This document shows, in pieces, positions 15,075 through 30,000 of a stretch of 64,000 bases of DNA. This DNA comes from Protoeuglena noctilucae (taxonomy: Eukaryota; Chlorophyta; Pedinophyceae; Marsupiomonadales; Marsupiomonadaceae). The translations under genes were made by a program, and so were the position numbers. The notes under the pieces are model-generated. The model saw only the letters and a program-made list of their open reading frames with translations, ran no database searches and was not told the DNA's origin. Every line of letters begins with the position of its first letter. The first letter of the stretch is position 1. Location: contig OY253687.1 of the NCBI GenBank assembly GCA_958009085.1, positions 823,259-887,258 on the forward strand. Direction: 5' to 3'.

Positions 15075-18000
15075 GTGGGTCGTCACTTCAGCATGCGTGA
15101 TGCTGCCAAGGTCTGCCGGAGAGTGCGGGGGATGCACGGGGGGCTGCTGGGGAGGTGCCAGAGGTGAGAGAGAGAGTGGTGGTGGGGATGAATTAGTAAT
15201 TTATGAAGTTGTAGTGAGGCAGCGGGTTGTGAGCGAGGGTCAGTGGGATGCTGGGCAGGTGCCGGAGGTGAGAGATGTTACAGTGTAGACATGAGGAGAG
15301 AGAGTGGAAGAGGGGGATGAGTTGATAAAGTGGTGCCAGAGGTGAGAGAGTGGTGGTGGTGATGGTGGTGGGGATGTCATTTGTCCAGAGTTATAGCGAG
15401 AAAAGCACTAGTTACCCTACCGTGACCCCTCAGTACCGACCCCCATCGCCACTCATCCGCACCAGCCGCCCTCACCCTCACCCCCCTGAGCAAACACCAA
15501 ACCAAACAACCACCACAACCACCCCCTCTCCCCCCATCCCCACCCCCCAGAGCCCATGCCTCCACCACTACTCACACCCCAACGCCCCCAATCTCTACCA
15601 AACCCCAAACAAACATACAACAACATTTCCCCCCCCCACTCCCCCACAGAGCCATGACGGCTCAGTCATCCCAAGGCCTGGCTGCCATCCCCACCGACCT
15701 CCGACACGCGTGTCTGACAGAATGCATCGACTGCCTCGCGGTGCTGTTTCCTGACAGCGGGGTCAGGATGGGGGTGGGGCGGGCGATGGCGGCGGTGTGG
15801 GCGCTGGATGACGGGCTGCCGGGTCACCTGATGGAGGTGGCGCGGCCGGCGTGGCACGAGGGGCCGGACGGGGTGAGATGATGGTGGGGTTGGGGTAGTA
15901 ATAAACCTCTTATTTCTATTTACACGATATCGTCATTCAAATCTCTTATTTAAATATCCCCTTCCTTCCAGGTCACCGTGGGCCGCGTCTCCCTCCCCTC
16001 CCGCCGCACCGCCCTCGCCTCTGCCGCCGCCGCCGTCGCCCGCACCCACAACAACATGACACCCGCATCCGCCGATTTCGCGAGCACCGGATCCGCGCTG
16101 CGGCACGCGGAGAGGGTGGCGGCGTGCGCGGCGATGGGCGAGCCGGCTCTGCTGGTGGGGGAGACCGGGGCGGGCAAGACCACGCTGGTGCAGCGGGTGG
16201 CGAGTGCGGTGGGGGCGCGGGTGGTGGCGCTGAATCTCAGTCAGCAGACGGACGCTGCGGATTTGATTGGGGGGTTCAAACCGGGTGAGGGGGGGGGAGG
16301 GGTGGGGGGTAGCTGTGGGGGGCATGGGAGTGAGGGTGTTACGGCGGTGTGTGTGTGTGCAAGGGGCAGCGTGTGTTGCAAAACACAGCATCTCTCATGT
16401 CCTGCTCTCTCGTCACATGCTCATAACAACATTGTAGTTATACTATATCATGTAATAATAGTAATAAAATACTATTGGTATTACAGCAAAACCCATTCTC
16501 TCTCTTCCCCCCCATCGCAGTGGATGCCAAAGAGGCGGTCCGGCCGTTGCTTTCCCGATTCCCAGACCTTGTGCGGTGGACGTGGCCCAAAGGGGACAAC
16601 GAGCAGCTGCTGCACCGAGTGGCCAAGGTGATTGATAATAAGTGGTTAATATGGATATACAGATATATAGATAACTGATGGATAGGCCAAGGTGAGTGAT
16701 AATTATATAAGAACAATTATAGATGGGTGAGGGATGCATAGAGGGCGATAGGTAGATGTATGGCTGTCATGTGCCGTGATGCGAAAACGTGCTACAATAT
16801 GCAATGTGCTATGTATTGGATTATCAGTTCTGCACACGTCCCTTACAACCCCATCCTCTCTCCTCTCCCTGCAGTTGGGCGAGCGTGGCAAGTGGTCCCA
16901 GGCACTCAAAGCCTTCCGCAGTGCAGCGGACAGGGTGGTGTGGGGCGGTGTTGACAAAGAGGGGGAGGGAGTTGATAAGGAGGGGGGGAGGAGGAAGCGG
17001 GCCAGGACACACAAGCCGGAGGTGAGAGGTGGTGTTCGTGCATGAGTAGTGAGCATATAGTATTGATAGTGACGTGATGATAGTAACGCTATCAACACGT
17101 GGCTTGTGCTGATAGGAGGAAGCGGGCGAGGGCGCACAAGCCTGAGGTGAGACATGGGTGTAAATTCATAAATTATAACTATATATAGTATTGATAGTGA
17201 CGTGCTGACATGGCATGTGTTGATACCATGGCATGCGCATTCGCGCATCGTTTGCTTTACCTCGCTCTCCCAGCCACCCATCTTGTCACACAGCCCCTCT
17301 CTCTCCTCCCCCTATTACATGCATCACTGTTCATCCCACTCATTCAATCCAACTCTCCCCCATTCCCCCCACTCAGGTGGTCTCCGCCTGGTCCCAGTTT
17401 CCAATCTCTCTGTTCCCCTCAACTCCATACATCGATTCATATCATTTACTTACTCTCTCCCCCATTCCCCATCTCAGGTGGTCTCCGCCTGGTCCCAGTT
17501 TCTGGCGGACATGTCTGACGCCGACTGCGCCCTGGCGGCGGCCGAGGGGGGCACCGCCTTTGCCTTTGTGGAGGGGGCGATGGTGAAAGCTGTCAGGGAT
17601 GGGGACTGGCTGCTGCTGGATGAGGTGAGAGGGGAGTGGGTGATGATGAGGCTTTGGAGCGCATGGGTACTTCATTTAATTATAATAGTAATAACATGAA
17701 TATAAGAACTGTAAATATTATAATTCATTCCCATTCCATACATACCCACTCAGATCAACTTGGCCCCCCCCGAGGCTTTGGAGCGCGTGGGCAGTCCCAT
17801 ACATGTGCATATCAATGAAAATTTTTAGTAAAACTAGTTATATTAAAATTTACTACCATTGCCCCCCCCACTCAGATCAACCTGGCCCCCCCCGAGGCCC
17901 TGGAGCGCGTGGCGGGTCTGCTGGATGCGGAGGGGGGGTCGGTGACGGTGGCGGAGAGGGGGGACGCAAACGCGGTGCCCAGACACCCCCACTTCCGACT

Positions 18001-27000: not shown

Positions 27001-30000
27001 CTTCCCAGAGCGGTGCGATTCACCGCAGAGTCTCTATCTGCGTCTCCCCACCACGCCGCTCCCCTCACGCTCCTCCAGTCAGCCGCCTCCCGCGCGCGCG
27101 ACCGTGTTTGGGCCGCGCGCACCACACCCCCCCATCCCTGCGCCGACCGCCTCATCCCAGCGCTCGCTGCCTGCGATGCGCTGCTGGACGCGGCGATTGG
27201 GGCCGACGAGCGCGCGGCGAGGGCGGCGGCGGGGCGCGGGGAGGTGGTGAGGGCCGCAGAGGCGGCGGTGGTGGCGATCGATGCGATGGTGGGGTTGGCG
27301 CACCCGACGGGGGTGGCGATGGGGGCTGCGACGGTGGAGGAGGTGGATATCTCCGATTGGGAGCATCCCGCGGATGTCTTGACCAGGGAAGCAAAGAGGG
27401 GTGCGGCGGATGGGGAGGCGCTATGCCGTGCGTGGCTGCGGGTGCGTGAATGTGCAGGGTTGCTTGCCCACGCGATGGGAGCGGCGGGGGTGGAGAATGC
27501 GGAAGAGTCAGCGCGCGTGTGGGTGGTGGCGGCGGCGGGGATGGATGACGCGATGGGTCTGGCAGATGGCTTAGCACCCACACCGCTGCTTTGGGCCAAA
27601 GGCGGCCACCCCCTGCCACCCCCCACCCCCGCACTGCGGGGGGCGCTGGACGGCTTGCGATCCCTCAGCGCCGAGTGCATGTTCCCTGTCGATGCTTTGT
27701 CATTAACAGCTGCGGCTGACGACACAGGTGCAATTGCGGAATGGGATGCGATGGCAGGGGCGGGTGCGGGTGGGGCAGAGGAGGGTGCTGCGCGGGCGCG
27801 GGCGGTGCTGCAGAGGGCAGTGCGGGCATCCGACCCCGCTCTGCGCGCGCGGCTGGTGCGGGCGCTGTGTCTGGCAGCGGCCGCGTCTGCCCTACCCGTG
27901 TCAGAAAGCGCAAGTATGGACCCCGCTGCTCTGTTGGATGGGATGCGTGCGGCAGTGGAGGGCAGCGCATCGGAAGAGATCAGCGCAACGGAGGGGCAGG
28001 GTTACGCGCACATGTGGCCGCCGCTGTTGGCTGCGAGAGAGGCGGCGACGGCGGTGGGTGCGGCATGCCAGGGTGCATTGCTTGCCATGCGACAGGCAGA
28101 GTGGCAGGACGCGGCGATCGCATGCGCGGCACTGCTGACGTGCGCCGCGGCTGAGGGGGCGATGGCAGACGAGGGCATGCAAGGGGCGGCGCTGTCAACC
28201 GCACTTGCAACAAAGGGGGCGGTGCTGCAGAGAGCGGTGGCATTGGGGGAGGCGCACCCCGGCATTCCCGCCGATGCCATTGCACCTCTCCAATTGGCGC
28301 ATTTCCTCGCGTCAGATGCGGGCGCTGCGTCGCGACTGGGCCCCGAGCGTGCGATGGGGGTGGCGCAAGAGGCGGGGCATGCGGCGGTGGCGGGGGGGTG
28401 GGAGGGGGCGGGGCTGGCGGCGGCGGCGGTGGTGGCGGGGATGGGGGAAGGTGAGAAGAAGCGCGTCGCAATAATGCGCAAACAGTGGGTGACTGTAAGT
28501 CAATGCGGGGGTGAGATGTGCTTGCCAATGCTAGCCATGGTTTGTTCATAGCATGTTGATAGCACTAACTGAGTGCCATTCTTACCCATCCACCTTTCCC
28601 CCAGGTCTGTCGTGGTGTGCGCTGCTCCCCCCCGCCCGCTCCGTCACTGCGTCGCTGACGGTGGCAGCGGCTGCGGCACTCACAGCGCCACCCCCCTCGG
28701 TGGAGGCACGCAACGCGCGGGCATCGCAGCTGCGCGCCGCGTGCCGATTGCTGCGATTCCACTCTGCGCGCGCCGACCATTCAGATCGCCTCGCCCATTG
28801 GCGGCGGGCTGCATGCGCCACGCTGGCCGTCACCCTCGCCGCCCACGGCCACCCCGCCACCCCACGCCTGACGAGCCTGGCCCGCGCATTCGCGACGCTC
28901 GCAAGCGATAACAACACCTCTGTCGCACACAGCTCCCTGCCATCCGATGCGGGCGCTGAGGTGGCGGCGGCTGCGTCCCAGTCCGGCCATGCGACGTTGG
29001 CACTCGTAGCCACGCCACTGCTAGCCCCATGCGCTGCAACACTCGCAGCAGTCACCAATCGCAACTCCGCACTCAACCCAAGCGATATCGTCCCATTGGC
29101 GCGTGCCTGGGCGCTGCTGGGCGCCGCGCGATGTCACCTCCTCGCCCCTCCCCCCCACCTCGACCCTGCTGCCACCCCCGCCCACGCCTGCGCCACCGCA
29201 CAGAGGGCCCTTCTGCTCTCCGTTCTGCCAGAGATGGCCGCCCGGTGCCTGGCGTCGAGTGTGCAGGGAGCGGAGGTGCACGGGGCGCGACTGGCGGGGC
29301 TGGCGGATGAAGCGGCGTTGCTTAGAGGGGAGGCGGAGGGCGCGAGGGGGCGGTGCGTGGCGCGGCCGCGACAGTCGCAGTACCCAGAGCTCGCGGCAGA
29401 GACGGGGCGATTCCTGGCGGGGCCGGGTGCGGCTGCGCGCGTGGCGGCGCTGGCGGATGCGGCGGTGGGGGGCGGTGGGGGTGCGGCGAGGGCGGTGGGC
29501 TGGGCGGACGGGGCGCGTGCATTGGCGGAGGGCCTGGCGCGTCGCTTCCCCGCTTATGTGGATTTGACGCTGCCACTGCGCCAGGCGCTGCTGGAGGCGG
29601 CGGCAGGATTCGCGGTTTTGGCTGCGTGCGTGGAGCACCCGCAGGCGAGAGGGGGTGGGTGTTAATCTATGTATGCTGCGTTGGCTGCATGGAGCATTCA
29701 CAGGCGAGATGGGAGGGGTGTCATTGCATATGTGCTGGCTGCGTGCGTCGACTTCTCTTATCAATTGTGAAACTCTCATTTCAGTCTCTTATCCTGCCAC
29801 AATCAGTCACTTATAGCAAGACATCATCACCTCGCTCTCCCGTTTCCTCACCGCAGGTGTGCGTGCCATCCGACCAGCCCCTTTCGCAAGACCTGACACC
29901 CGCATCCCTGTCATCCGCCGCCGTCGCCGCTCTCATGGCATACCCGCAATCGGTGGCGAATGCAAATGCAAACGCGAACGCCTCTGCCATCCACCTCGGC

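Follow-up and report, generated by a model that had tools for sequence, protein, structure and literature searches.

The 64-kb window of Protoeuglena noctilucae analysed here (i.e. the whole stretch of DNA introduced above, which forms the end of contig C20 in a genome of 26.3 Mb and 26 contigs and terminates in TTAGGG telomere repeats) contains the readable part of a gene for midasin, several introns of which hold extra copies of the adjoining exon-intron borders. The 5' end of the gene lies within or upstream of a gap of 200 N (14875-15074), just before the first readable exon. One exon piece matches midasin with an E-value of 5e-71, and the spliced N-terminal 1162 amino acids align with yeast midasin at 1127 bits across four stretches, the best of which scores 875. 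Predicted proteins of limited length, among which full-length midasins cannot appear, were also compared, and among the 120 of 394 matches listed the first six that carry an organism label are green algal or plant (Botryococcus, as judged by its code, 51%; Cymbomonas, 49%; Diphasiastrum; Helicosporidium, 54%; Apatococcus; Chara), identity being 60% or less in every one of the 120. Donors and acceptors were placed by sequence and the open frames checked, which delimited 27 introns, those numbered 16, 20 and 27 having uncertain borders. GC donors occur in introns 9, 17, 21, 22 and 24 of the first 25, and the G+C content of these 25 ranges from 0.37 to 0.62.

As a tendency, the midasin introns (15164-36302) have a G-rich start, a C-rich end and an AT-rich middle. 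Their AT content is above that of nearly everything in 200 kb of other contigs, and the 20 sampled 10-kb stretches of those contigs contain 0 or 1 AT-rich 200-bp windows each. Intron 19 contains a long simple repeat of about 34 TCACTC units (24893-25096). The reading frame shifts within the long exon 25170-28494 (about 26557-26921), probably near a C run at approximately 26.6 kb, and a second frame change occurs around a G run at an exon end (22805-22820, near 22.8 kb). Both changes probably stem from errors in homopolymer length.

Extra copies of a border, including its splice motif, are found in nine midasin introns, namely 1, 4, 5 (at both ends), 6, 8, 12, 13, 15 and 21 (Table 1). In intron 5 a 26-nucleotide (nt) intronic block is furthermore repeated nearly in register (17055-17080 and +128, at a period of 125), in intron 8 the copies are spaced by 126 and 120 bp, the copy in intron 13 carries a 2-nt insertion and one codon that has been turned into a stop, and intron 15 consists partly of a GT repeat. 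The printed part of the yeast alignment crosses the junctions of introns 6, 8, 12 and 13 and holds no insertion that corresponds to a copy. There, the copies sit inside introns with conserved outer borders and the flanking exons are joined as in yeast midasin.

Table 1. Positions, within the window, of the midasin gene and of the border copies in its introns
Feature	Position	Strand	Details
Midasin gene, readable part	15075..37627	+	27 introns delimited; TAG stop 37625-37627
Intron 1, donor-side copy 1	15245..15275	+	23 exonic nt (20/23) + GTGAGAGA; real donor 15164
Intron 1, donor-side copy 2	15332..15349	+	10 nt + GTGAGAGA
Intron 4, donor-side copy	16685..16703	+	7 exonic + 12 intronic nt; real donor 16628; weak alone
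Intron 5, donor-side copy	17114..17152	+	33 exonic nt (29/33) + GTGAGA
Intron 5, acceptor-side copy	17354..17401	+	pyrimidine tract + CAG + 25 exonic nt (25/25); real exon start 17478
Intron 6, partial third copy	17648..17667	+	20 nt, exon-derived, without its acceptor
Intron 6, acceptor-side copy	17745..17790	+	CCCACTCAG + 37 exonic nt (34/37); real exon start 17876
Intron 8, acceptor-side copy 1	18641..18723	+	tail in common with copy 2, not in exon
Intron 8, acceptor-side copy 2	18772..18814	+	33/34 exonic nt; real exon start 18901
Intron 12, acceptor-side copy	20376..20446	+	46 intronic (39/46) + 25 exonic nt (23/25); real exon start 20525; period 103
Intron 13, donor-side copy	20856..20898	+	36 exonic positions (29/36) + GTGAGAG; real donor 20751
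Intron 15, donor-side copy	22295..22326	+	27 exonic nt (25/27) + GTGAG; real donor 22220
Intron 21, donor-side copy	29686..29737	+	18 exonic nt (14/18) + GCGAGA + 34 intronic positions (25/34); real GC donor 29645; weak alone

To compare these copies with unrelated introns, as an earlier note on this DNA had proposed, each border of 25 midasin introns was aligned with the intron it belongs to and, as a control, with the remaining 24, which gave 600 mispairs per side. The highest score among the mispairs was 17.0 for donors and 13.0 for acceptors, whereas the own-intron scores amount to 20.5, 28.0, 22.5 and 27.0 for the donors of introns 1, 5, 13 and 15, and to 29.0, 33.5, 35.5 and 24.0 for the acceptors of introns 5, 6, 8 and 12. 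Chance similarity is thereby contradicted as the cause. The note's figure of at least nine among 27 introns holds, with seven strong cases (introns 1, 5, 6, 8, 12, 13 and 15, scoring 20.5-35.5) and two, introns 4 and 21, that are weak alone: the score of intron 4 (11.0, i.e. 11 exact bases) is equalled by 2.2% of the mispairs and on its own not significant, and in the case of intron 21 the top match of the border alignment was another stretch, its border copy scoring 14 in the junction-spanning test only. All twelve copies that had been listed are present (the numbers given denote the last copied exon base on the donor side and the first one on the acceptor side), and the two copies at 18.7 kb do have a non-exonic tail in common, as had been claimed.

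The search was extended to 200 kb, that is twenty 10-kb loci on 20 other contigs of this genome, by means of a simple two-strand gene model trained on the window and the sampled loci. A looser first training (702 introns) over-predicted and a stricter set of 303 introns, predicted from sequence alone, was therefore tested; the gene model reproduces 23 of the 27 midasin introns exactly. Junction-spanning copies occur in 19 of the 232 predicted introns on the other contigs, all within six of the 20 loci, and in 9 of the 31 predicted midasin introns, which correspond to eight real introns (some being cut in two by the model where a copy lies), at a mispair rate of 0.0002 per side (4489 pairs). 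The 40 predicted introns of the other genes in the window contain none, which agrees with the observation in the earlier note that these genes are free of copies. The 19 introns elsewhere, on the other hand, rule out a midasin-only effect; the phenomenon is thus not peculiar to this gene. Some of the outside cases are weak (e.g. L016:2075-3061, with a score of 14), and copies are commoner there in introns with midasin-like splice signals (9/56) than in the rest (10/176). A gene-blind, ungapped repeat scan (81 rows) matched splice borders in L014, L016, L020, L022, L023 and L027 among others, and also lists coding repeats (e.g. in L011, L021 and L028) and a few repeats that were left unassigned. 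The repeats of L011 (2167-2522; tandem units of about 114 bp) read as coding and contain a WAWAKLGYDP-like motif, which we presume to be reminiscent of algal helical-repeat proteins; those of L028 (3034-3276; 42-bp units) read as coding as well. A run of 200 N lies near a border copy in L023.

With the real border included, the number of copies is three for each of introns 1, 6 and 8 as well as for L014, L016 and L023, whereas L022 has four and L020 five. The five copies of L020 (6093-6363) show an alternating spacing of 54 and 52 bp and hold an exact tandem unit of 106 bp; this is probably the youngest array seen. For the 27 copies that were characterized in midasin and the other loci, the period is 41-178 bp with a median of 100 (one period in L016 was set to 95 owing to an intermediate copy). 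Their exonic part measures 7-37 nt (median 25), so that the copy length of about 9 to over 60 bases stated in the earlier note can be maintained at its upper end only by counting the intronic flank. Summed over all copies, exonic identity is 93% (604/650 positions). In these figures the minus-strand sites of L020 and L022 are displaced by 3 and 1 nt, which is corrected in the positional identities given below. The exonic edge is sharp: beyond it, the similarity of exon and copy does not surpass the best mispair in 25 of the 26 testable cases, L023a being the exception and L027a being too short for the test. When exons alone were used as queries and no motif was required, 44 matches were obtained, of which 37 reach the junction exactly, a few of these being low in complexity, and seven lie off it. 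GT or AG is kept in 32 of the 37; among the five matches that lack it at the expected place, one L023 copy reads ATGAGT, one L016 copy reads CCCCAC, and L014 shows a 2-nt shift. Matches that end at the junction and retain the splice dinucleotide in these proportions fit a duplicated border rather than random pieces of exon. In midasin, the differences between real border and copy are spread over codon positions 1, 2 and 3 as 11, 3 and 12 (265 sites) and comprise 15 synonymous and 11 non-synonymous changes, a pattern that speaks against the copies being under coding constraint and that an unconstrained copy next to a constrained exon would give.

We regard recurrent tandem duplication across the border, combined with fast rearrangement of the intronic sequence, as the most likely origin of the copies, and as somewhat more probable than even. 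Short tandem duplications with a period of approximately 40-180 bp would recur over the exon-intron borders of some introns and would be tolerated, given that the exons continue to be joined correctly at the outermost (original) splice site, the inner copy of the exon edge and its splice motif turning into intron. Repetition could then yield arrays of three to five copies, real border included, and a longer intron. Deletions and further duplications would quickly rearrange the intronic part, and deletion appears also to have been at work in intron 6. The exonic piece would stay recognisable, since its partner, the real exon, cannot move; exon-derived pieces remain visible because that exon is the only fixed reference. 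In support of such a process, exact tandem units exist in L020 and in L027 (41 bp), and the order of exon, splice site and intron is retained within the unit, as in the border-spanning tandem duplication of the potato RdRp gene discussed below. The intronic part of the unit rises above the mispairs (z >3) in 9 of 36 site pairs (introns 5, 8, 12 and 15, L014 twice, L016, L023 and L027); the intronic likeness in L022 was judged by eye and by extension (27/35 and 23/29) instead of by z. In a permissive extension, the left and right matches together approximate the period in intron 4 (63 of 64) and intron 12 (107 of 103). Of the interval between copies, 15 nt or less is left unexplained in 7 of the 36 site pairs, and up to 98 nt in pairs for which no intermediate copy is known.

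The earlier note had proposed that introns grow by tandem duplications that straddle splice sites. The arrays do show growth and such duplication is the best explanation, but a scheme of simple duplication with subsequent even decay accounts neither for the loss of intronic homology nor for the ceiling of 37 nt, and several results weigh against it. At donors (n=17), identity is 0.94 at exonic positions -6 to -1, 0.84 at -12 to -7, 0.82 at -18 to -13 and 0.64 at -24 to -19; on the intronic side it falls from 0.95 at +1 to +5 to 0.62 at +7 to +8, 0.53 at +9 to +12 and 0.42 at +13 to +18, with a mispair baseline of 0.35. At acceptors (n=10) it is 1.00-0.90 over the first 18 exonic nt and 0.58 at -12 to -7, the baseline there being 0.54. 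Because a drifting copy compared to a fixed exon is expected to show about half the divergence of two free introns, the intronic loss is too great for a single old duplication that decayed evenly. On average the exonic part makes up 0.27 of the period instead of the approximately 0.5 expected for a random cut (Kolmogorov-Smirnov p 2e-8), and none of 20000 simulations held all 27 exonic parts at 37 nt or less. Both contrasts, that in identity and that in exonic share, are inflated by selecting on a conserved exon edge, by exonic queries of 32-36 nt and by a gene model that possibly calls long copies exons. Even so, a clearly alignable intron is already missing in several young cases (0 or 1 difference in 17-34 nt), and intronic homology does not exceed z 3 in 27 of the 36 site pairs (several segments measure 8-20 nt and have low power). 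In pairs other than those of introns 4 and 12, the sum of left and right matches misses the period widely, from 91 versus 141 to 235 versus 126. A rough annotation-based repeat scan gave, as unmerged rows, 42 intron-intron and 26 border-intron repeats outside the window (6 and 12, respectively, in midasin), a ratio that carries no claim, as many of the intron-intron rows stem from one probably mis-called stretch (L016:2403-3181) or are parts of border units. Since simple even decay does not fit, fast intron rearrangement enters the explanation as an added assumption, and the ceiling of 37 nt may be due to subsequent trimming or to inner sites of greater strength being selected against.

A different mutational route, which we consider unlikely, is the repair of staggered breaks, in which fill-in duplicates some tens of bp across the border and the two copies become separated by as much as approximately 100 bp of unrelated filler. 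For intron gains in Daphnia a similar signature of direct repeats has been proposed, whereas the introns here already exist. It would explain the sharp exonic edges and the young copies that leave part of the period unmatched, i.e. 53 nt in intron 5 (exonic match 25/25) and 97 and 16 nt in L023 (29/29 and 21/21), where intronic z against mispairs is 2.4, 2.0 and 0.9. The tandem units of L020 and L027, however, are exact and free of filler, the nine pairs with z >3 do have intronic homology, and the lengths of exonic and intronic duplicated parts are not clearly anticorrelated (rho -0.14 overall, -0.31 at donors, neither significant). If, on the other hand, selection kept the inner copies as splice-site decoys, for example to slow or regulate splicing, edge and motif would be conserved and the rest would drift. 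The conserved footprint, from about -24 to +5 at donors and from the AG to about +24 at acceptors, has the expected form, and the splice motifs of the copies score nearly as high as the real ones (mean 6.87 versus 7.02; at least equal in 18/27, the minus-strand sites of L020 and L022 being 3 and 1 nt off), a strength that is partly built in by how the 27 cases were selected. Functional decoys are nevertheless doubtful in view of the junction-reaching matches without GT or AG, which include the clear motif-less copies in L023 and L016, and of edges that are sharp instead of graded. The use of an inner site in midasin would moreover lead to a stop or frameshift for all copies except the two of intron 8. 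Turnover is suggested by the fact that divergence from the exon is at most 8% in 17 of the 27 copies, although copies of this kind are favoured by the detection threshold. The bolder proposal that border copies are a standing, genome-wide feature of one intron class, made by a junction-tied process that duplicates about 7-37 nt of exon together with the splice motif, and retained for a function as decoys that would give many genes built-in competing sites, is best treated as a speculation with little probability.

The copies could also be spliced into some transcripts as extra mini-exons or alternative exon starts, and the unconstrained gene model did call those of introns 6 and 8 as mini-exons; use of the intron 8 copies (18655-18900) would insert 82 or 40 extra codons that keep the frame and contain no stop. 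We nonetheless consider this very improbable, because the yeast alignment leaves no room for them in its printed part and all remaining midasin copies would break the frame or introduce a stop; on the same alignment and frames, the reading of the copies as normal constitutive exons is rejected. Least credible of all is chance similarity or an assembly artefact. Low-complexity introns and 200-N gaps nearby would leave some scope for it, against which stand the mispaired controls and the substitutions that most copies carry relative to the exon, unlike a false duplication made by an assembler. A family of introner elements was considered as well and rejected: part of intron 13 and introns 6 and 8, when searched against the own genome with simple repeats skipped, match only themselves.

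Two further features of the window lie outside the midasin gene. About 35 AAT units (39199-39302) are located inside a predicted minus-strand intron, and an open frame of 1062 amino acids for a reverse transcriptase (58656-61841, minus strand; RVT_1, E-value 5e-22) is situated near the terminal TTAGGG repeats (63788-64000).

Arguments on intron lengthening and on the source of spare splice sites usually rely on isolated or old examples. A graded series that runs from exact tandem to decayed copy would allow a direct measurement of the rates of birth and loss, of the limit on exon length and of the competition between near-identical splice sites. On the practical side, gene predictors can mistake border copies for mini-exons, as the gene model used here did.

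A genome-wide pattern of border copies was not found in the literature searched (subscription papers being mostly outside it), which yielded only single border-spanning cases; such single duplications are already known, and the recurrence across a genome is the new part. The nearest published case found is the potato RdRp gene PGSC0003DMG402000361, in which one tandem duplication across an intron-exon border made a new intron, and which also has an 83 bp intronic tandem (Ma et al. 2016, PMC4974935). There, as here, the border is crossed, and the copy takes over the pyrimidine tract, the 3' splice site and the beginning of the exon. The potato case nevertheless concerns one gene, a new intron, inserted exon sequence and the support of RNA reads, whereas in the present genome many introns and genes are involved, with up to five copies, a protein change is not needed, and the pattern is known from DNA alone. 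Tandem duplication and break repair are both among the intron-gain mechanisms reviewed in PMC3443670. Intron gain by tandem duplication likewise relies on extra splice sites provided by the duplication, but turns a duplicated exon segment into a new intron, whereas in the present genome it is existing introns that become longer, with the copy located within them. With break-repair gain of the Daphnia type the copies share direct repeats at introns and possible filler in between, some intervals between copies being without detected homology and others having it; in that mechanism, however, short repeats flank new introns, whereas here longer repeats straddle existing splice sites. Introner elements (PMC9860276) are comparable as a lineage-specific form of intron dynamics, but constitute dispersed families, unlike the three copy-bearing midasin stretches that match nothing else in the genome. 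Finally, near intron pairs in Drosophila, attributed to intron sliding or exon tandem duplication, were inferred from intron positions and proto-splice sites (PMC2891723) and similarly point to duplicated splice motifs as a path to altered intron borders; the footprint of the duplication may be lost in those pairs, whereas in the midasin introns it is still visible.

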